From NCBI GenBank assembly GCA_903832775.1, contig CAILCX010000022.1, positions 1-32,878 of the forward strand: DNA of 32,878 nt, given 5' to 3'. The notes under the pieces are model-generated. The model did no database searches. It saw only the letters and a program-made list of their open reading frames with translations, and was not told the DNA's origin. Source of the DNA: an uncultured Methylobacter sp. (lineage in GTDB: Bacteria; Pseudomonadota; Gammaproteobacteria; Methylococcales; Methylomonadaceae). The position numbers were made by a program, and so were the translations under genes. Below, piece by piece: positions 8,701 to 29,484 of this stretch (positions are counted from its first letter, which is position 1; the number at the start of each line of letters is the position of its first letter).

Positions 8701-9427
8701 TGCGGGCTTTCGTTTCAAGGCTGCGCCGATGTTGTTCCCAGTCCCCCCATATTTTAAAAACCGCTACTAGGTCTGCATCTTCACAGTCAAGCCCCCATGC
8801 TTCGGTTTCAGACAATAAGGGCTTAAGTAATTGAGTCAAGTCTTCAGGTGACTTTGCCAGTTTAAAGACAGCCGGACACGAGAATTCAGGTAAAGGATAA
8901 AAAAATGTCCGCCAATAATCGCGAACCACTTCGTTCAAAAGCTCGGCATCGTTAGTATTTACCTCCTGCCGGAACAGACTCCCGCTATCAAACGCATGTT
9001 GTTGCAACATGCGATTACACCAACTGTGTATCGTGTACACAGCGGATTCATCCATCCAGTTAGCGGCCAGTTCCAGACGACGGGCACAAGCGCCCCATTG
9101 ATTTGAGTCAGTATAATAAGCCCGCAGTTGTTCCAGAAAAGGATCGCTATCCACCGCTTGTTGACGAAAAAAGCGCGCTGTCTGGGTAAGACGGGCACGG
9201 ATACGGTCGCGTAATTCTTTGGTGGATGCCTCAGTAAAGGTAACAACCAAAATGTCAGGGGGTAATAACTCTCGTCTTGGCAACTCATTATCGGCAACAT
9301 GCCCAAGAATCAGACGGACATATAAGGCCGCGATGGTATAGGTCTTACCGGTTCCCGCGCTGGCTTCAATCAAGCGGGTGCCGGATAATGAAAAAGTTAG
9401 CGTATCCAGTGGCTGGGCGACGCTCAT
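5738..9427 (-). CDS. recB: RecBCD exonuclease V, beta subunit RecB
   Basis: The 3'-5' superfamily 1A helicase and nuclease subunit of RecBCD (1229 residues from the chosen start, near the family's usual 1180). Walker A ASAGTGKT is at 22-29. Further helicase motifs are ALIDEFQDTDP, GDPKQAIYSFRGAD, ATNYRST, IITIHKSKGLEYP and LLYVAMTRA. The C-terminal nuclease domain keeps its metal-binding signature, FIDLVF followed by VADYK, so the nuclease should be active. I chose ATG at 9427 rather than an in-frame start at 9487 because it forms an ATGA overlap with the recC stop (9424-9427), mirroring the recB-recD junction, and because MSVAQPLDTLTFSLSG matches the usual short lead into Walker A. Confidence 0.96.
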   Translation of the reverse strand: MSVAQPLDTLTFSLSGTRLIEASAGTGKTYTIAALYVRLILGHVADNELPRRELLPPDILVVTFTEASTKELRDRIRARLTQTARFFRQQAVDSDPFLEQLRAYYTDSNQWGACARRLELAANWMDESAVYTIHSWCNRMLQQHAFDSGSLFRQEVNTNDAELLNEVVRDYWRTFFYPLPEFSCPAVFKLAKSPEDLTQLLKPLLSETEAWGLDCEDADLVAVFKIWGDWEQHRRSLETKARSLWLNNQKTIETVLNNASANLWLNGNQYRVATFNSKLAELALWAKIGINPDIDTLVKFGSQKLQSGLVKAHQDKAVELSHEAFQALDDFISHTQQELGISEILIKHAIHWVRNRYDIEKQRLAQMTFDDMLTRLDKALLGANGEQLASVIRQQYPVALIDEFQDTDPVQYRIFERLYASPSTNDLGCFMIGDPKQAIYSFRGADIYTYLKAHKVTIGRHYTLATNYRSTIALVSAVNQVFSQADHQGEGVFRFKNGADDPLPFIQVNAQGRKEEWVVNGQSAAALTLWHNELPEPIGLPAYRNEMAEVTASEIVRLLNLANEGAAGFKLADTFRALQPEDIAILVRTGKEAKIMRNALASRELRSVYLSERDSIYETATAGDLLIWLKAMADPRNERKVRAALSTATLGWTYQALHHLTQDEPGWEQQLERFISYQQRWQQDGILPTLRQLINDFGLHRQLKLDHDGERCLTNLLHLAELLQQASSQLEGEQALIRHLAEAIADQNNQVSDENVIRLESDANLIKIITIHKSKGLEYPLVFLPFICSFREVSGRNAYYKYHDENQHLVIDLSKDEAIKALSDRERHQEDLRLLYVAMTRAQHACWLGIAPVKMGSARESQLDKSAIGYVLGWQAKTPASELISHLTRLKGDCIAITLAAFPMSTLDNYYPTQQQEMLDLARVSTARIADNWWIASYSALQTEVKGVIQGDELPVPETSRDDKQSDEADINVRSLTKTLSGIHSLPRGAGPGVLIHELLEQCAYQGFKVMRESSELRQQLINKIFINDTWNNKREIIAGALLQWLSMPLLEGKSACLADLGPNQFQVELEFLIGSNEVNVKILDRLVTNHTFAARPRPCLLPGQLNGLLKGFIDLVFVHNQQYYVADYKFNGLGNNDADYTEDVMEAAMLTKRYDLQCTLYLLALHRLLKVRLGLSYDYDSHVGGGLYLFLRGAHGSTGGRIIIKPPKVLIESMDSLFSGSALQGESA

Positions 9428-12400
9428 GCTTGTGCTCCCGAAAGCTTGATCTGTGTAAATGCTGACAGGTAAAGTGTGTTGGCCCATTCCACAAAACCCT
9501 CTGTTTCAGAATCGAGAAATAAACTGGTAAAGCTCGGAAAAAACCGGGCCAGGTAAACATCTTGATCCACCTCACCCCTGCTCCAGTCATCGCCCTCGTA
9601 TTTTGTTTGAGCTACAGCCAGCGCCTTATCCGGTGAGGCGCTTAACCAAACAAAGGCTGTTCTGCAAGCCACTGGCAACGGAGATTGCATGCCCAGTTTC
9701 CAGGCTTCTACAAGCATTGTGAGCTGGGCTTTAGCTTCGGATTGGGCTATGGCATCAATCTCAATCACCGTATCCAAACCTACCACCCTTGTTTGCAGAT
9801 TCATACCGATCGCGCAACCCGCCAGATGCTGTACCCAGTAAGTCAACAAGTTGTAATATTTTATTTTTTTCTCATTAGTCAGCGCTTGTGCGGTTAAATG
9901 AATCATAACGCAGTGCTGACAATCACTGCTTTGCCGTAAATTACTCAGCTCGCCGGTTAACTGAACAGTGCTGTTATCGGGGAACGCAAAACTCAAGTCA
10001 ACAACACGAGAGTCCATTTCACTTGGCCATAAAGCCAGTAATGCCTGATAATGCTCCCAGACCTGATTGACCGGAACGGCAAGGTCAGAAAAGGCCGTAT
10101 GGACAAAGCCTCCCAATGGCAGATTGCCTTTTCGAGCCATGACCGAGCATTGCTGCTCAAAAAATGTTCCGGTGTCGACAGGTTTTTCGCTATGCAAAAC
10201 TTTCAGCAAATCGTTGCGCAGCTCATAACTTTCAAGTGGATTAAATCCAAATGGTTCATTGTCTTCACTGGTGACGGTATCTGTATCGAAACCAAACTTG
10301 AGAGTGTGATTGCAAAAACTTTTAACCGGCGCTTTCAGGAAACGAGCTAAAGAACTGAGCGTTAGCAGGTTATTTTCATCATTGGCCAGTTTATTAACTC
10401 CTAATGAGCCGCTTAAAACGGATTCCTCAAACCATTCCCGTGCATAAGTGAATAAACGCGGATCACGCTGTTTCAACAAATACTCTGCGCTGAAAGGTTG
10501 CAACGGATGTTCGACGGTTATCGCTTTAAGCAACTCCGGAGAGTTATCGGGTAGTTGCCAGCCCTGACTCAGCGTATCGCGTAATTGACTGATCAATACT
10601 GAAGGTGGACGCTCACTGTTATCACGAATATTACGGCCTACCCAACTAATATAAAGTTGTTGCCGTGCAGAAAGCAAGGCTTCCAGAAACAGATATTGAT
10701 CGTCCTGTCTACGCGAGCGATCGCCAGGACGATAGTGTCCACGCTGACTCATCAAATCAAAGCTTTGTGGTTGCTGACTGCGCGGATAATCACCATCATT
10801 CATGCCCAGCAAACAAATCAACTGAAAGGGAATCGCACGCATCGGCATCAAAGTGCAGAAATTGACTCGGCCACTGAGAAAGCGTTGGTGCAGACCAGGT
10901 TCATCTACAGCAGATAGCCAAGCTTCCCTAACCACAGACAAAGGTAAAGTTTCAGTTGCAGTCAATCCGGCTTGTTCGCAACATTGCCCCCAATCTGTCA
11001 AGGCATGAGTCAGTGTTTCCTGCATTTTCCTGTCACGCTCGTCACTGATAAGGAAAAAATCTTCCAGTAATTTCAATAGCACATGTTGCCAGTCATCCGG
11101 GTTTTGAACTTGCCGCAATAAAGTCGCGTAGTTTTCCAGTGTTTCCATTAAAAATGACAAACCGCCTAGCCATTGCGCCTCCAGGCCACCGATTTCGGGA
11201 TAGGGTTCGATAGTATTGAAAGCGGCACCGGCTCCGACCGCATAACCGAGCAACATCCGCCGTAACCCGAATTGCCAGGTATTGGCATCCATATCTTTGG
11301 GCATAGCGACAGACTGAGTGCGTTGCCCGGCATTCAAGCCCCACCGAACACCCGCTTCTTCAACCCACCGATGCAAGGTGGGAATGGAGGCTTCTTCAAT
11401 TGCAAAGCGCTTCCTTAAAGCCGGCACTTCCAGCAAACCTAGAAATTCACTAACGGTAAAGCGTGACTCAGGCAGATTAAGCAATACCTCAACCGCCACC
11501 AACAAGGGATTTTGGCCTCGCTGTTGCTGATCGGCCAAACTGTAAGGTATATAACGAGGATCATCAGGTTGCACACTCCCAAAAACAGCGCGGATATGCG
11601 GAGCGTATTTATTAATGTCCGGCACCATGACAATCACATCGCGCGGTTTTAACGTCGTGCCGTTTTGGACGGCAATATTAAAACGGTCTAACAACTGATC
11701 GTGTAATATTTCCACCTCCCTTTGCGGACTATGGGCAATGTGAAACACCAAAGACAAATCCGTCCCAGGGAGTTCGACAGGGTCAGCGGGTATAGGCTCT
11801 AAATCCAGTATTGATTGTTGTAAGTGTTGCAACAGACTGCGTTCTTGAGGCTCTCCGTAATCCTTGAACAAATCAATTTTATTGTCCGGCCAATGCCAGT
11901 TTGCATAGGCTTGGGTTTCATCAAACTGATCAAGCAAACGAATATAATCACGCCCCTGTTTGCCCCAGGCAGCAAGTAAGGGTTGCGCATGAAGGTGGAG
12001 TTCATCATCAGACAACGAGGCAGACATGCCTGTTTTATACAATTGGCGATGCCGTTCCGCTTTTAACAGTTCTTTATCTTCAATAATATCGGCCCAGTAA
12101 TGCTGGCAGGGATTATGAATAAACAATACGATTTGGCAAAACTTACCTAATTTAGCCAGCACTTCGAGCGATTGCTGTGGTAAGGAAGATAAACCAAAAA
12201 CCATTATCCGGCGCGGTATAGCTGCTGGAGGCTGCTCCAGTTTATCAATATTAACCATAAACTGTGAATGTACCGAAGCTCGACTCGCAGATAAAGTATG
12301 ATCGGGGCCCAAATCATCGAGCACTGCTCGCCACAAGCCGGCTTGCCAACGATGCTGTACAGGCAAATCAAGCAATTCCCCAAGGGCATTACGCAAACCA

Positions 12401-22100: not shown

Positions 22101-22619
22101 TTATTTAGTTAATTTTGCACTTAACTGGCCGGACCACTGACCAAAGAAAGCACCAACAACAATTGAAATAGATATTACAACGAGAGCATTATCTAATGAT
22201 GCACTGAATAAAATTTCTTTAGTTAGCTTACCAGGAGTTTGCAACAAATAGGCAAAAGTAGATGAATACCCAAGAACACTTGCAGGTATTGTTGCTAACG
22301 CAGGAATATTAGCAGCAAGACACATCACAACAACTGAAAATATTACCGTTACAGCGGCCCAAAAAGGAAAGCCAAGAATTGCTGTAGCAGGAATATTAGT
22401 AATCTGAATAGCTGCTAACCAGGCCATAAATACCCCGAAAATTCCACATACTATAGTGTTTTTTAACGCTTCAGGTGTTGCCCCCAGAAAGAAATAAGCT
22501 GCCCATGCAATAGTTGCCGCCCATATGAAGAAAATACCGCTAAGTGGCCCAACAGCCAAAAATGTCGCTAACCCAGCTAAACAGGCAATACTAATGGAAA
22601 GTGCTGTAAGATTGTTCAT
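22101..22619 (-). CDS. DUF1097 family inner-membrane protein
   Basis: A 172-residue hydrophobic protein with about five predicted membrane segments (LTALSISIACLAGLATFLAV, GIFFIWAATIAWAAYFFLG, a third around residues 55-75, VIFSVVVMCLAANIPALA, and ALVVISISIVVGAFFG). The overall pattern matches DUF1097, the family of E. coli YcdZ, whose function is not known to me. It is monocistronic and flanked by gene-free DNA on both sides. No catalytic motif is visible. Confidence 0.72.
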   Translation of the reverse strand: MNNLTALSISIACLAGLATFLAVGPLSGIFFIWAATIAWAAYFFLGATPEALKNTIVCGIFGVFMAWLAAIQITNIPATAILGFPFWAAVTVIFSVVVMCLAANIPALATIPASVLGYSSTFAYLLQTPGKLTKEILFSASLDNALVVISISIVVGAFFGQWSGQLSAKLTK

Positions 22620-22915: not shown

Positions 22916-23902
22916 TTAGCCTTCCAGAACTGCCAAACGATCTGCAAGTATTTCTTCTAGTGATTCCAATGCTTTTGTAAATCCGTCAATACCTTCTGCA
23001 AGTTTATCAGATGCCATTCTGTTTTCAGCATGCATTCGATCAAATGTTGATTTATCAATTGATAATTTCTCAATTTCTAAGTTAACAGCATTATCTGGAT
23101 TCAGCTTACGATCAAGATTCGCTTCGGTAGATTGCAATTCAGCTAACAAAGAAGGAGCTATTGTCAATAAATCACAGCCTGCCAATTCAACAATTTCTCC
23201 CACATTACGGAAACTCGCACCCATAACTTCAGTTTTATAACCAAATTTTTTGTAATAATTGTATATTTCAGTTACTGATAAAACACCAGGATCTTCAACA
23301 GGCTCATAAGAGTCACGACCTGTATCCTTTTTATACCAATCAAGTATTCGTCCAACAAAAGGAGAAATCAGGGTAATACCACTTTCTGCACAGGCAACTG
23401 CTTGATGAAGGCCAAATAACAAGGTCAGGTTACAATGAATTCCTTCCTTTTCAAGAATTGCAGCGGCTTGAATACCTTCCCAAGTTGCAGCAATTTTAAT
23501 CAATATGCGCTCACGTAAAACACCTTGAGCTTCGTACATAGATATCAATTCACGCCCTACAGCAACGCTGGCTTCTGTATCAAAAGAAAGTCGAGCATCG
23601 ACCTCAGTTGATACACGACCAGGAATAACTTCTAATATTTTTTTCCCAAAAGAAACAGCTAGCCTTTCAAATGCTAATGTTGCAACTTGTGCAGCTGAAG
23701 CAGAGTCTCCTAAAGTTTCTCTTGCTCCTTTCAAGGTATCATCAACAATACCTTGATATTGAGGCATTTGAGCCGCAGCAGTGATTAACGATGGATTTGT
23801 CGTTGCATCACGAGGCATAAATGTTTCTATTGCCTGAATATCGCCAGTATCAGCAACAACTACTGTCATTTCTCTCAATTGTTCAAGTAAATTTTGTGTC
23901 AT
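22916..23902 (-). CDS. tal: Transaldolase, class I TalB type
   Basis: Cytoplasmic transaldolase (328 residues) that transfers a dihydroxyacetone unit between sugar phosphates. In the RuMP cycle it helps regenerate ribulose 5-phosphate. The Schiff-base lysine is K136 in [12 protein letters not shown] (E. coli TalB K132). The family signature DATTNPSLI (32-40), [12 protein letters not shown] and GRILDWYKK are present. A strong Shine-Dalgarno (AAAGGAG, about 7 bases) precedes the ATG. It is in the same orientation as hxlA-hxlB-tkt and the repeat-protein genes, but a 353-bp gap upstream suggests its own promoter. Confidence 0.95.
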
Positions 23903-24255: not shown

Positions 24256-25404
24256 TTAAACTCTTTCAGAATCAACTCTAGCAGAAATAATTTTCCTAGA
24301 CATATACCTAGATACTCCACTCGAAACAGGTAAAACTGCCTGCCTTTCCATATATTTTGCAACACCACTGATTCTAACAATTTGCTTTACAATTTTAGAC
24401 TCCCTTTCAAGATACCTATCTACTCCACTTAAAGTAGATTTTTCTTTTACCTGTAAAGTTTGTTTTGCTACGTACTTGGAAACACCACTTAAAATTGGCG
24501 CTTCTTTGCCAGATACAATTTGTTTTGCTACATACTTTGCAACTCCACTTACCGGGGGCCTTTCTTTCGCTAAAATTGCTTGTTCTTCAAGATACCTAGC
24601 TACTCCTGTTGCCGCTAAACTAGCCATAGATCTTTCCTTAGCCTTTTCAAACTCTTTTTCAATGGCTAATTGCAACTCAATTTCTTTTTCTTTTTCTTGC
24701 TCTTTTGCAAATATCCGCTGTTCTTCCAAGTATCTTGCAACTATAGTGGCAGCTGCTGCTTTTCTTGCTGCAAGTGACTCATCTTGCAGATATTTTGCAA
24801 CTCCAGTGGTTGCACCAGCATTCCTTTCGGAAATAGATATATTTATTAAATATTTGGCTACACCTGTAATAACTGGCGACTTCGCTTGCCGATCCACATA
24901 CTTGGCAACCCCACTTATTTTAGCTGGAGTTGTTTTGCTTACACCATTTATAGCCAAGTACCTTTCCACTCCACTCTTTTTTGGTGCATTTTTAGCTAAA
25001 AGAGCTTGTCTTGCCATATATTTAGCAACACTGCTTATTGGAGACTGATTAACTTTCTCCAGATATCTGGCAACACTACTGAGTGATACTTGAACTTTAA
25101 CAAGATCTGTTTGATATGCCACTTCAGTCTCTGGCAATGACACCAAATGTGCTGTTAAACCTTCATCTTGAACTTCCAAGCATTGTACAATCTCTGTTAT
25201 TGATGATTCTTCTTTGCTCTTTAAATACTTCGCAACTCCGCTTAAAGCTGGAACCACTTCCTTGCTTTTTAAATATCTGTCAACTCCACTTAGCCCATTT
25301 GTTTCGCGAACAAATGTTATATCCTTAACGTGAGCCAGTGATTCAACTTTTTTTGTTGAACCAAAAAGTCCGGACACTAAATTGATCAAATAATTTTGAT
25401 CCAC
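24256..25404 (-). CDS. Soluble SGVxKYL-repeat protein, unrecognised family
   Basis: I do not recognise this 382-residue protein. It consists mostly of a repeated motif S/T-G-V-x-K/R-Y-L/V/M, with 15 clear copies beginning near residues 39, 55, 109, 124, 144, 164, 180, 200, 220, 266, 286, 306, 326, 346 and 362, plus one degenerate copy near 70. Spacing is mostly 20 or about 16 residues. The linkers are helix-prone and rich in K, E, Q and A; a charged, coiled-coil-like insert lies at about 230-262 (EQEKEKEIELQLAIEKEFEK). There is no signal peptide, membrane span or enzyme motif. Translation starts at GTG behind GGAGGTGAT, a near-perfect complement of the 16S 3' end, 3 bases after the stop of the membrane-anchored repeat protein. 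Position between tkt and tal suggests a link to RuMP metabolism. A scaffold role is inference. Confidence 0.8.
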   Translation of the reverse strand: MDQNYLINLVSGLFGSTKKVESLAHVKDITFVRETNGLSGVDRYLKSKEVVPALSGVAKYLKSKEESSITEIVQCLEVQDEGLTAHLVSLPETEVAYQTDLVKVQVSLSSVARYLEKVNQSPISSVAKYMARQALLAKNAPKKSGVERYLAINGVSKTTPAKISGVAKYVDRQAKSPVITGVAKYLINISISERNAGATTGVAKYLQDESLAARKAAAATIVARYLEEQRIFAKEQEKEKEIELQLAIEKEFEKAKERSMASLAATGVARYLEEQAILAKERPPVSGVAKYVAKQIVSGKEAPILSGVSKYVAKQTLQVKEKSTLSGVDRYLERESKIVKQIVRISGVAKYMERQAVLPVSSGVSRYMSRKIISARVDSERV

Positions 25405-25412
25405 TTATCACC
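25395..25412 (-). promoter_or_regulatory. Exceptional ribosome binding site of the soluble repeat-protein gene
   Basis: On the minus strand, CGG AGG TGA closes the upstream gene and at the same time supplies GGAGGTGAT, a 9-base match to the anti-Shine-Dalgarno complement, followed by AAGTG with GTG as start. Spacing is about 6 bases from GGAGG. It decides the GTG start and predicts efficient, coupled translation. Confidence 0.7.
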
Positions 25413-26076
25413 TCCGGTTGCGCATGTACTTTTCAACACCGGTACTAGCTTCAGCTGCTTTTTCTTTTGCAGATTTAGCTTGTTTTTCAAGGTACTTTTC
25501 AACTCCACTTACTGCGACAGCATCCTTTGCAGTTGCAATCTGACTCTCCAAATATCTTGCAACACCGGTTAATTCAGCCATATTATGCTTTCTAAGATAT
25601 CTCGCAACACCTGAAAGTCCACTGGCATGATTGCTAAATACTTGATTCGCAGTTGTCTTGGCTGATGCATTATCCCGTTTTCTTAAAAAACCAAAACCTG
25701 CCGCTGCAAATACTGCTAAGCCCAACAAGTAACTCATCATAGAATCTTCTTCTACTTTAACCGCTGCACTCACATCCAAATCGGCTTGTTTTGTAGATTC
25801 AGATTTCGAAGCGACCGTTGAAGACTTTCCTGGCTTATAGTCAGCGTCCTTGTATAGAACCTTTGGCTCAAAATCTGCTGCTGGAAATTTTGAATCTACT
25901 TCTGCAGATTTAACTTGTTTAGCAGATCCTGGAGCAGAGTTACTTTGAGCGCTACTATCTTGATAAATTATTTTTGGCTTAAAATCCGATGCAGGATATT
26001 CTGTATCAGCACCGGCTATCGGACTGGCCAATAATAGCGCAGCAACTAAACCATTTGTCAGATTATTTATTTTCAC
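25408..26076 (-). CDS. Membrane-anchored SGVxKYL-repeat protein, unrecognised family
   Basis: A 222-residue protein of no family I know. It has a signal peptide (1 to about 23, ending PIAGA) and a periplasmic part with two copies of a motif, YPASDFKPKIIYQD (27-40) and FPAADFEPKVLYKD (64-77), in Ser/Lys-rich linkers. One membrane span (about 114-131, MMSYLLGLAVFAAAGFGF) is followed by LRKRD. A C-terminal tail carries four SGVxRYL-type repeats at about 155, 170, 190 and 212. The positive charges after the span place the tail in the cytoplasm, where the 382-residue partner with the same motif should be. The start is GTG with a G-rich Shine-Dalgarno (GAGGGGG) and no in-frame ATG upstream. It lies 107 bases after tkt and 3 before the soluble partner. 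Confidence 0.8.
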   Translation of the reverse strand: MKINNLTNGLVAALLLASPIAGADTEYPASDFKPKIIYQDSSAQSNSAPGSAKQVKSAEVDSKFPAADFEPKVLYKDADYKPGKSSTVASKSESTKQADLDVSAAVKVEEDSMMSYLLGLAVFAAAGFGFLRKRDNASAKTTANQVFSNHASGLSGVARYLRKHNMAELTGVARYLESQIATAKDAVAVSGVEKYLEKQAKSAKEKAAEASTGVEKYMRNRR

Positions 26077-26183: not shown

Positions 26184-28169
26184 TTATAGTACTGCTTCTA
26201 CATTTTTGACTACGTTTTCGACAGTAAAGCCAAAGTGCTTCATCAATTCGCCGCCTGGTGCAGACTCACCAAAAGTATCGATGCCGACAACTCCACCTTC
26301 TAAACCTACATACTTACGCCAAAAATCAGTAATACCTGCTTCAATTGCAACACGTTTTACACCTGGAGTTAATACACTGTCTTTATAAGCTTGATCCTGA
26401 CGGTCGAATACATTTGTTGATGGCATTGAAACTACGCGCGCTTGAATACCTTTCTCTGCTAAGGCTGCTTGTGATTTAATTGCTAAATCAACTTCAGAAC
26501 CGGTTGCAATAAGTATAACTTGAGTATTTCCGGCTGCTTCAGAAACAACGTATGCACCTTTACGAATAGCTGCGATTTGTTCATCAGTACGCATTATAAA
26601 AGGCAAGCCCTGACGACTTAACACCAAGCTTGAAGGCCCAGTTTTACGTTCAATGGCCATTACCCAAGAAACTGCAGTTTCAGTGGTATCAGCTGGTCGC
26701 CACACATCCATATTTGGAATGTAACGCATAGCAGAAGTATTCTCAATCGGCTGATGCGTTGGACCGTCTTCCCCTTGACCAATAGAGTCATGAGTTAAAA
26801 CTGCAATAGTGCGAATTTTCATTAATGCTGACATACGCAATGCGCTTTTCGCATAATCAGAGAACATGTGGAATGTTCCACCGAATGGTAATAATCCCCC
26901 ATGCAATGCCATACCATTCATAATAGTATACATACCGAACTCACGCACACCGTAAGAGATGTAATTACCATTCTCTTTACCGCTGACATGCTTAAAGCTA
27001 CTGCAACTGGTTAAGTTGGAACCTGTTAAGTCCGCAGAACCACCTAAAAACTCAGGTAATGTTGGCGCTAATCCACCAATTACTTTTTGTGAAGATTGAC
27101 GTGTGGCAAGAGTTTCTGCTTTTTCGTTGGTTTCAGCAATTAAAGCGTCAGTAGCTGCTTTCCAATTTTCAGGTAATTCACCCGCCATACGACGTTTGAA
27201 CTCCGCTGCTAATTCTGGATATGCAGTTTCGTAGGCTGTAAATTTTGCATCCCATGCCGCTTCTGCTTTCTCACCTTTGGCTTTAGCATCCCAACCCGCA
27301 TAAACATCTTCTGGAATTATGAATGCTTCGTGATCCCAACCTAAAGCTGCTTTGGTCAAATTGATTTCTGGTTGACCCAAAGCAGATCCATGACATTCAT
27401 GTGTACCTGATTTGTTTGGCGATCCAAAACCAATAGTTGTTTTGCAGCAAATTAATGAAGGCATATCAGTCATAGCTTTAGCCATGACGATTGCTTTGGA
27501 AATTTCTTCAGGATTATGTCCGTCTACCGATAGAACGTGCCAGCCGTATGCTTCAAAACGTTTTACCGTGTCATCTGTATACCAACCCTCAATGTGACCA
27601 TCAATTGAGATACCGTTGTCATCCCAGAAAGCAATCAAATTGCCTAAACCCCAAGTACCCGCTAAAGAACAGGCTTCATGAGAGATCCCTTCCATTAAAC
27701 AGCCATCACCCATAAACACGTAGGTATGATGATCAACGATTTTATGTCCATCTTTATTGAACTGGTCGGCCAGTAGCTTTTCTGCCATTGCGAAACCAAC
27801 ACCATTCGCAATACCTTGACCTAATGGTCCGGTCGTTGTTTCAATACCTGGAGCATAACCGTACTCAGGATGTCCAGCACATTTTGAATGAAGTTGACGA
27901 AAAGAGGCCAACTCACTCATAGGCAAATCATAACCAGTCAAATGCAATAGTGAATATATCAGCATTGAACCGTGACCGTTAGAAAGAACAAAACGGTCAC
28001 GATCAGACCAATTCGGATTGGATGGATTGTGACGCAAGTGTCCATTCCACAAAACCTCGGCAATGTCTGCCATTCCCATAGGGGCACCTGGATGCCCAGA
28101 GTTTGCTTTTTGTACGGCATCCATGCTCAAAGCGCGTATGGCGTTCGCTAATTCTCTGTGCGAAGTCAT
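26184..28169 (-). CDS. tkt: Transketolase
   Basis: A thiamine-diphosphate enzyme (661 residues) transferring two-carbon units between sugar phosphates. In the RuMP cycle it regenerates the pentose acceptor for formaldehyde. Active-site histidines are H26 (SGHPGAP), H66 (SNGHGSML) and H100 (CAGHPEYG). The ThDP/metal motif begins at GDG (154-156) and runs through [11 protein letters not shown]; the pyrimidine-domain glutamate lies in [11 protein letters not shown]. Full length, with a good Shine-Dalgarno (AAGGAG, about 6 bases). It lies 137 bases after hxlB, with a hairpin in the gap, and 107 bases before the membrane-anchored repeat-protein gene. Distinguishing it from the methylotrophic yeast dihydroxyacetone synthase branch is straightforward: length and motifs are those of bacterial transketolase. 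Confidence 0.96.
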
Positions 28170-28306: not shown

Positions 28307-28840
28307 CTATTCTAGATTAGCGTGCCTTTCTCTCATTATTTCTTCAGGAATTCCTTTTTCATGAATAATATGTGAAATAGTTGCTTCCAAAAATAACAAG
28401 GTAGATAGCTCAAAAACAGTTCCCATGGGCATGCCTAAAACTTTACCATAAAGCTCCTGCTTGCCTACTTGAAATACGTCATCTGCAAGATCACCGATTG
28501 TTGAATCGTCTTTTGCAGATATCAGAACTATATTTGCACCTACTTTTTTTGCATTTTTGGTAAATGCTATTAATTGCTCAGTCTCTCCAGATCCGGAAAT
28601 AATGATCAATAAATCACCGCTTTTAATGCTTGGCGTCACAATTTCACCTACGACACTTACATCGTAGCCACCATGGACGAGTCTCATCGCAAAAAAATTG
28701 CCTACTAACTTCGAACGTCCAGCGCCAGCGATAAATATGCGCTTGGCGTTATCAAGCAACTCCGTCAACTTTGCATCATACGTATCATCTGTAGCTTCAA
28801 GAACACCTGAAATCTTTTCTATGATAAGTTGCTGATGCAT
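28307..28840 (-). CDS. hxlB: 6-phospho-3-hexuloisomerase
   Basis: The second enzyme of the RuMP formaldehyde-fixation pair, converting D-arabino-3-hexulose 6-phosphate to fructose 6-phosphate in the cytoplasm. At 177 residues it is essentially one SIS (sugar isomerase) domain: RIFIAGAGRSKLVGNFFAMR, then SGDLLIIISGSGETEQL, then a C-terminal helix ending in PEEIMRERHANLE. Length and motifs match the archaeal/bacterial PHI family. It begins 2 bases after the hxlA stop, so the two are co-transcribed and probably translationally coupled. They are separate genes here, not the hps-phi fusion found in some methylotrophs. Confidence 0.94.
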   Translation of the reverse strand: MHQQLIIEKISGVLEATDDTYDAKLTELLDNAKRIFIAGAGRSKLVGNFFAMRLVHGGYDVSVVGEIVTPSIKSGDLLIIISGSGETEQLIAFTKNAKKVGANIVLISAKDDSTIGDLADDVFQVGKQELYGKVLGMPMGTVFELSTLLFLEATISHIIHEKGIPEEIMRERHANLE

Positions 28841-28842
28841 AA

Positions 28843-29484
28843 TTATACCGCGTCAACCAATTCGCGAATTTCACGTGCTGCATCTGCAGGAGAAGCCGCA
28901 CCATAAATTGCCGCGCCAACAACGATGATGTTTGCACCCGCTCTAACTACGTCTTGTACAGTTGAAGCTTTGATACCGCCAGCTACTGAAATTCTTACAG
29001 GCAAGCCCAATGATGCGATATCAGTCAAATCAGCAAAAGGTGTGTGACCAGCTGCTTGTGCGTCTAGACCTGTGTGGATACCCATGATGTGAGCGCCAGC
29101 TTCACAAGTAGCTCTTGCACAAGCGACTTTATCACCAACGTTAATCAAATCAATTTGAGCTTCTGCTCCATATGCGTTGGCTGCTTTAATAACGCCAGCA
29201 CAAGTAGCAAGACCAGAAACACCTAATACTGTACAGATATCAGCACCTGCAGCGTAAAAAGGAGTTGCTTCGTACTCGCCAGCGTCCATAGTTTTAAGGT
29301 CAACTAACAATAATTTATCTGGGAATCTTGCTTTAAGCTCTCTAACCAGATTAACACCATTGTGTTTAATACAAGGTGTTCCGATTTCAAAAATGTCAAC
29401 ATGCGGCGCTACTAATGTGGCCAATGCGACAGTTTGGTCGAAATCTAATGAATCTAATGCCATTTGTATTAATGGTTTTGCCAT
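28843..29484 (-). CDS. hxlA: 3-hexulose-6-phosphate synthase
   Basis: The formaldehyde-fixing enzyme of the RuMP pathway: formaldehyde plus ribulose 5-phosphate gives D-arabino-3-hexulose 6-phosphate. It is 213 residues, a single (beta/alpha)8 barrel of the orotidine-monophosphate-decarboxylase superfamily. The Mg2+-binding and catalytic DxKxxD motif is D62-K64-D67 in LVDLKTMDAGEYEA; the phosphate-binding end has SVAGGIKAST and NIIVVGAAIYGA. The Shine-Dalgarno CGGAG lies about 8 bases before the ATG, and a promoter with a perfect -35 box lies some 70-95 bases upstream. It heads the cluster hxlA-hxlB-tkt-repeat proteins-tal and is the main reason for calling the organism a methylotroph. Confidence 0.96.
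   Translation of the reverse strand: MAKPLIQMALDSLDFDQTVALATLVAPHVDIFEIGTPCIKHNGVNLVRELKARFPDKLLLVDLKTMDAGEYEATPFYAAGADICTVLGVSGLATCAGVIKAANAYGAEAQIDLINVGDKVACARATCEAGAHIMGIHTGLDAQAAGHTPFADLTDIASLGLPVRISVAGGIKASTVQDVVRAGANIIVVGAAIYGAASPADAAREIRELVDAV

Follow-up and report, generated by a model that had tools for sequence, protein, structure and literature searches.

Enzymes that fix one-carbon compounds can be gathered by weakly folded proteins carrying several short helical motifs, such as EPYC1, the linker of the algal pyrenoid, and CsoS2, the scaffold of the alpha-carboxysome. In the ribulose monophosphate (RuMP) pathway, a natural HPS-PHI fusion, HxlAB (NF041755), likewise joins the first two enzymes. 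It is still to be explained how methylotrophs cope with the toxic intermediate of this pathway under high flux, and formaldehyde toxicity and slow assimilation limit synthetic methylotrophy. The hexulose phosphate synthase of Methylococcus was reportedly once described as particulate, a report that was not recovered in our literature search. The window analysed here is a stretch of 32,878 nucleotides from an uncultured Methylobacter sp. of the family Methylomonadaceae, order Methylococcales (assembly GCA_903832775.1, contig CAILCX010000022.1, positions 1 to 32,878), in which two adjacent genes, here called repA and repB, encode arrays of a short repeated motif. RepA and RepB belong to a family apparently without earlier description, found inside the formaldehyde-assimilation cluster of methane- and methanol-consuming gammaproteobacteria. 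They may be tethered to the membrane and serve the RuMP enzymes as a multivalent scaffold, a proposal whose chances we put just short of even.

A repeated motif in two adjacent genes

The two genes are as follows.
24256..25404, minus strand: repA, 382 amino acids (aa), GTG start; motif-array protein with 15 motif copies and a weak N-terminal hydrophobic helix
25408..26076, minus strand: repB, 222 aa, GTG start; predicted membrane-anchored protein with a signal peptide, two periplasmic modules, one transmembrane helix and four cytoplasmic motifs

An initial annotation of this DNA had reported 15 motif copies in one protein and 4 in the other, which both counting and shuffling bear out. RepA holds 15 copies of the broad form, [STA][GSI]Vx[KR]Y[LVM], and 12 of the strict form, [ST]GVx[KR]Y[LVM], with 20 or 16 residues as the commonest spacing, and the 4 copies in RepB are all strict and lie 15 to 22 residues apart. 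Over 2000 composition shuffles, strict motifs averaged 0.0005 with a maximum of 1. The ratio of nonsynonymous to synonymous substitution (dN/dS; Nei-Gojobori counts with Jukes-Cantor) across 19 Methylobacter sequences was 0.066 at the motif codons of repA versus 0.252 elsewhere, and 0.037 versus 0.216 in repB; the motif is therefore the part of these proteins that selection preserves most. V and Y are invariant in the first two motifs of 23 RepB sequences (alignment A1). Chance or a spurious open reading frame (ORF) was dropped as the origin of the repeats, since the shuffles and the purifying selection speak otherwise. An antisense ORF at 24476-25048 on the plus strand was likewise dropped as a gene, as it mirrors the repeats of repA.

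The annotation had recognised nothing beyond the motif that the two proteins share, and neither reaches the curated cut-off of any family in Pfam or NCBIfam. Short local resemblances to LPXTG_anchor (TIGR01167, 13.7 bits against a cut-off of 15.9; the proteins do not qualify as sortase substrates) and to U1snRNP70_N (PF12220, 20.3 and 14.8 bits against 23) were judged to be chance. Among PDB sequences the repeat profile had no match below E 1 (best E 1.1) and none of relevance. Six exact motif strings were not found in a text search of 5.39 million papers, nor was a publication uniting RuMP, hexulose, metabolon and scaffold, most subscription journals lying outside the scope of the search. According to the publication on its genome (PMC517821), Methylococcus capsulatus carries RuMP genes in a 5,267-bp direct repeat; no repeat protein is mentioned in the passages on it.

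Linkage to the RuMP genes

On the minus strand of the window the gene order is hxlA-hxlB-tkt-repB-repA-tal, which agrees in coordinates and neighbours with the annotation's placement of the motif genes between tkt and tal. The neighbouring genes are listed below.
28843..29484, minus strand: hxlA, 3-hexulose-6-phosphate synthase (TIGR03128, 239.7 bits, cut-off 200)
28307..28840, minus strand: hxlB, 6-phospho-3-hexuloisomerase (TIGR03127, 196.5 bits, cut-off 160)
26184..28169, minus strand: tkt, transketolase (TIGR00232, 962 bits)
22916..23902, minus strand: tal, transaldolase (TIGR00874, 471.9 bits)

Relatives keep this arrangement. All 19 Methylobacter loci compared (L003-L021) have repB and then repA beside tkt, and tal follows in 18 of them, the contig of L010 ending first. 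Most other genera of the family have the pair at the same place, with 2-4 copies of the motif in RepB and 7-17 in RepA; the repB type alone occupies that position in L050 and in the named contigs L146, L148 and L149. Where the hxlA-hxlB-tkt cassette is repeated, as in L030 and L037 (M. buryatense), a motif gene follows every copy. Five f4 genomes bear the motif; in four of them (G051, G054, G060 and G039) the motif gene instead lies immediately upstream of hxlA, the fifth, G046, having it after tkt, and groups f3 and f5 also carry a motif gene (L051, L053, L061). A third order is seen in group f10, which we infer to be Methylophagaceae: a motif protein is encoded between hxlA and tal in 16 of 16 RuMP loci read. 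The matches in this group were opened in part, and the short loci L069-L074 were left out. The linkage thus persists through three gene orders and through cassette amplification, and the RuMP connection that the annotation had drawn from position alone holds across families and is far stronger than one locus could reveal.

Counts over larger sets can be used to judge how regular the linkage is. Scoring hxlA over cut-off among the matches listed, 61 relatives divide into 43 with hxlA and the motif, 6 with hxlA alone (four genomes of f6, G057 and the 72% complete G014), 1 with the motif only (G029, where the contig ends beside the motif gene) and 11 with neither. This count retains G052, whose motif is on an 11.2-kb contig (L056) suspected of being contamination; neither L056 nor L010 was included when sequences were collected. 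Named contigs were scanned for HxlA; out of at least 532 relatives the top 80 were covered, 72 with a stand-alone hxlA and 8 with a fused hxlAB. An ORF with at least 3 motif copies lies within 8 kb in 62 of the 72 stand-alone cases, and in the remaining 10 the contig ends less than 4 kb past hxlA. None of the 8 fused loci has a motif gene, although 6 of them had room for one, and the fused copies are an internal control for the linkage. Care must be taken in combining these sets, as the named contigs partly come from the same genomes as the relative and Methylophagaceae loci, some genomes give two loci, and the sets are not independent.

Beyond the order, a 35-column profile spanning two repeats (A4, with rows supplied by G000 and G032) matched 7 of 369 genomes of the class. 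Six of these are the six with hxlB over its cut-off, apparently in the same draw, and the seventh (G278; 14 residues, E 0.008) is marginal and is not counted as real. The motif thus occurs near-exclusively in the hxlB-positive genomes of the class draw. Across three class draws, which did not extend to the betaproteobacterial Methylophilaceae, hxlB-positive genomes were found in f1, f4 and f10 only, plus G411 of f152 below the cut-off. Over 200 genomes of the phylum, in which hxlB was not searched, A4 had one match, the window's own genome. On plasmids, hxlB was found in 127 records, half of them from Staphylococcus, and no repA counterpart was found. An origin in phages or mobile elements was dropped, as there was no match for repA on plasmids, for repB in phages or for alignment A3 in viral contigs.

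A few loci deserve separate mention. In L151, from a methane-oxidising endosymbiont of Gigantopelta aegis, the array upstream of hxlA (9059-9603) is split over two frames and is apparently decaying, with an intact repB-like gene after tkt. In the one-contig genome G039 (L060), hxlA, hxlB and tkt are fragmented across frames, for which sequencing errors are likelier than true breakage. The same motif proteins appear in L056 (G052, f6) and L051 (G038, f3), genomes of different families, which suggests contamination. In the window, a hydrophobic 172-aa protein is encoded past tal (22101-22619, minus strand); it matches no NCBIfam family at E<=0.1.

Membrane anchoring and predicted structure

Alignment A1 gives the general plan of RepB: a signal peptide, 1-3 modules of the type YPAxDFxPKVxYxD, a low-complexity linker, a transmembrane helix and usually 2-5 motifs, with a C terminus that is often TGVEKYLRDRG. 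The window's RepB follows this plan, with a signal-peptide-like N terminus, a helix at residues 112-131 (two overlapping 19-residue windows above 1.6 on the Kyte-Doolittle scale) and its motifs C-terminal to the helix. The N-terminal half is thus predicted to be periplasmic and the motif half cytoplasmic, the same topology as in the annotation. Two further features of this region are placed as follows.
25837..26004, minus strand: the two RepB periplasmic modules, YPASDFKPKIIYQD and FPAADFEPKVLYKD, of the YPAxDFxPKVxYxD type
25406..25415, minus strand: probable ribosome-binding site GGAGGTGATA, as read from the letters, directly 5' of the repA GTG and overlapping the final codons and stop of repB

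Through the overlap at GGAGGTGATA, translation of repA is probably coupled to that of repB.

RepA had been called soluble, and it has no 19-residue window above 1.6; this part of the claim is made uncertain by a short hydrophobic stretch at its N terminus, where relatives have a strong amphipathic or transmembrane-like helix. For example, a 134-aa family member in L030 begins with a transmembrane-like helix. The N-terminal hydrophobic moment of RepA is 0.54 (90th percentile of shuffles), and that of other RepA-type proteins varies widely. In the operon protein of Methylophagaceae (e.g., MSEKGFFASICDFFSGLFSS in L086) the moment is 0.59-0.65; all 10 proteins examined from the first 12 loci reach at least the 97th percentile of their shuffled versions, and the N terminus is probably an amphipathic, membrane-binding helix. 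Two types of anchor are therefore predicted: a signal peptide with a transmembrane helix and, for Methylophaga, an amphipathic helix at the N terminus.

AlphaFold2 models built with 23 sequences had no packed fold for RepA (mean predicted local distance difference test score, pLDDT, 66.9; predicted template modelling score, pTM, 0.28), and RepB reached a mean pLDDT of 58.4 and a pTM of 0.18. In the RepA model a helix begins at 14 of 15 motifs, and the repeat reads as an N-cap followed by one short helix, often with Pro before the next copy. Foldseek searches of pdb and viral structures with this low-confidence RepA model gave no match at E<=0.001.

The outer module of RepB can also be found apart from the motif array, and the two halves of RepB are therefore separable modules. 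For instance, L214:9089-9334 (C133, in the window's genome) encodes a small periplasmic protein whose two YPAxxFxPKVIY modules resemble the outer half of RepB, downstream of a gene named by eye as a NitT/TauT-like ABC transporter, and L208, L209 and L212 encode further small periplasmic proteins of this type. In f6, membrane proteins with outer YPAxxFxPEV modules and an inner acidic tail ending in Arg (L200:8736-9269, L201:8723-9364, L202:8353-8997) are encoded near a mutS-like gene, also named by eye.

The motif in Methylophagaceae and in a chemosensory kinase

A RepB profile matched 54 of 57 Methylophagaceae genomes at E<=1, in the operon protein, a kinase or both; the 54 include G436 (77% completeness, 5% contamination), whose full RepB match is atypical for the family and is suspected of being contamination. 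The operon protein measures 85-233 aa from stop to stop and carries 2-8 repeats of the T[GS]V type, usually spaced by 17 residues. In one genome (G442, 67% complete), two RuMP loci on separate contigs (L219 and L093) each have a motif gene. Of 48 Methylophaga motif copies, 45 have Glu at position 4 and 14 have Gln at position 5. A Lys-based formaldehyde sponge was dropped as an explanation, as position 5 can be Lys, Arg or, in Methylophaga, Gln.

The same motif is present 4-7 times in the linkers of a kinase at eight Methylophagaceae loci (L076, L078, L081, L085, L087, L090, L092 and L094). This kinase is about 1800-2050 aa long (interrupted by the contig end in L078), has Hpt, HATPase, CheW and receiver domains in the two examples scanned, and is presumably of the ChpA/PilL type. 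Across eight genomes, operon proteins whose motifs more often have Ser rather than Gly at position 2 go with kinases in which this is also the case (Spearman 0.81, p 0.015), in a test chosen after the pattern was noticed and uncorrected for phylogeny. This would fit one partner common to the operon protein and the kinase, and the motif-bearing kinase is a possible link between RuMP metabolism and surface behaviour.

The proposed scaffold and its alternatives

In the proposed scaffold, each motif copy, [ST]-[GS]-V-x-[KR]-Y-[LVMI], would form a short N-capped helix along a flexible chain, its V, Y and L presumably aligned on a single side. In Methylococcales the transmembrane helix of RepB, and in Methylophaga the N-terminal amphipathic helix, would fix the array to the inner membrane on its cytoplasmic side; RepA, which reaches 17 copies in relatives, would lengthen the RepB array. 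HxlA or Tal may be gathered at the membrane first, and then HxlB and Tkt; hxlA and tal are the genes closest to the motif gene across lineages, and their enzymes are proposed as first clients because these genes are close to it in all three gene orders. Formaldehyde from the periplasmic methanol dehydrogenase could in this way be captured on entry and the toxic intermediate contained. A more elaborate version, which we regard as rather unlikely, is a transmembrane capture assembly in which the YPAxDFxPKVxYxD modules of RepB would read the periplasm, perhaps near methanol dehydrogenase, while the TGVxKYL array and RepA organise HxlA, HxlB, Tkt and Tal, and in which the motif code of Methylophaga couples the kinase too.

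Several observations weigh against a RuMP scaffold. No patch on HxlA or HxlB separates motif-linked from unlinked enzymes, the only separating positions being V25, E205 and A212 in HxlA and, in HxlB, the start Met, in a comparison where two HxlA and one HxlB of L137, which has a looser motif, were misplaced in the unlinked set. Five f6 loci and G057 have hxlA-hxlB with no motif gene adjacent (the f6 loci also have no tkt or tal nearby), and G411 has an hxlB-like gene (148 bits, cut-off 160) and no motif; the array is therefore dispensable for RuMP chemistry. Confidence in the AlphaFold models is low to middling, and the amphipathic-helix signal is strong in Methylophaga only and modest in RepA. 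Motif genes also occur with no RuMP gene in view, namely in L032, L042, L218 and L207 and, at contig ends, in L205 (a repB-like gene of G029) and L038 (repA of G033). The motif is found inside the chemosensory kinase as well and, taken together, these cases mean that it need not bind RuMP enzymes. Homologues without RuMP linkage, which the initial annotation had named as evidence against its idea, therefore do exist as a minority, beside a near-exclusive association with hxlB and a linkage that crosses families. Three of the unlinked genes encode a type of their own.
L032:2737-3519 (G026), L042:9942-10769 (G040) and L218:8267-9046 (G023): soluble Cys-tailed motif proteins with a C-terminal CQA..GTQC...C..H

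The two of these that were scanned had no Pfam match over cut-off, and a sub-threshold match (17.7 bits against 70) of the L042 protein to a component of the diatom pyrenoid was judged to be chance. G046 has a second repB-like gene (L207:8610-9311); it carries three motifs, and the 18 kb on which it lies show no RuMP gene.

Other roles can be envisaged for the arrays. The motif could be a docking site for a signalling or adaptor protein common to the RuMP-operon protein and the ChpA-like kinase, with the arrays reporting RuMP flux or localising a regulator. The copies in the kinase linkers and the correlated use of Ser, post hoc and uncorrected for phylogeny as it is, speak for such docking; we consider it unlikely overall, as up to 17 copies fit a scaffold better than a sensor and repA and repB are the sole matches of the motif search in the window's genome at E<=10, the one genome of the Methylococcales examined for such kinases. 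The motif could instead bind itself or an adaptor. Motif helices that bind each other would form a membrane-attached network that recruits no enzyme, for example a cytoskeleton-like or spacing element, and it fits this idea that two adjacent genes share the motif, that the HxlA/HxlB comparison yielded no partner site and that no enzyme ORF carries the motif (0 of 99 tkt, 113 tal, 169 hxlA and 127 hxlB ORFs, some from overlapping loci), a count by which fusion of the motif to an enzyme was also dropped. Homotypic assembly leaves unexplained why the RuMP linkage survives rearrangement and amplification, and it seems doubtful to us.

Two further explanations have lower standing. Members of the window's family build stacks of intracytoplasmic membrane, and arrays that bridge or shape such stacks in type I methanotrophs could have been placed among RuMP genes for co-expression only. 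RepB is predicted to span the membrane and is widespread in that family; however, hxlA occurs without the motif in G057 and in four genomes of f6, all within the methanotroph order, and the Methylophagaceae, with a motif gene in every RuMP locus read, are not known to oxidise methane or to form intracytoplasmic membranes. This makes a membrane-shaping role quite improbable, and a general tie of the motif to intracytoplasmic membranes is therefore unsupported. Least probable is a nucleic-acid binder or general basic protein whose RuMP linkage is historical: the net charges of RepA (+17) and RepB (+6) would suit it, but the basicity is not conserved in Methylophaga, where Glu prevails at position 4 and Gln recurs at position 5, while the invariant V and Y and the recurring membrane anchors point elsewhere. 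A membrane-tethered scaffold for RuMP enzymes remains our preferred reading. Of the interpretation first given to this locus, it retains the RuMP link, with which the near-exclusive occurrence with hxlB in one class draw accords, and the predicted anchoring; it gives up the tether to intracytoplasmic membrane as a general rule and allows for a minority of unlinked homologues. If the reading is true, synthetic methylotrophy would gain a part that it has lacked, a native RuMP-dedicated scaffold that is portable as a motif tag, and if the motif shared with the Methylophaga kinase marks a common partner, it would join carbon assimilation to behaviour.

Comparison with known systems

Of the known systems, ChpA/PilL-type kinases share the motif with RepA and RepB in the linkers of their Methylophaga members and are otherwise signalling enzymes unrelated to them. 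The fused HxlAB, present in some of the same genomes, joins its two enzymes covalently and has no motif gene beside it at the eight named loci. EPYC1 and CsoS2 differ from RepA and RepB in motif and pathway and in the membrane anchor predicted for the latter. As would be expected of such a scaffold, the motif gene is tied to the genes of its would-be client enzymes, the exceptions being L032, L042, L218, L207, L205 and L038. The closest likeness, one of how the proteins would work and drawn from general knowledge of EPYC1 and CsoS2, is that RepA and RepB consist of several copies of a conserved short motif set in less conserved, poorly folded linkers.

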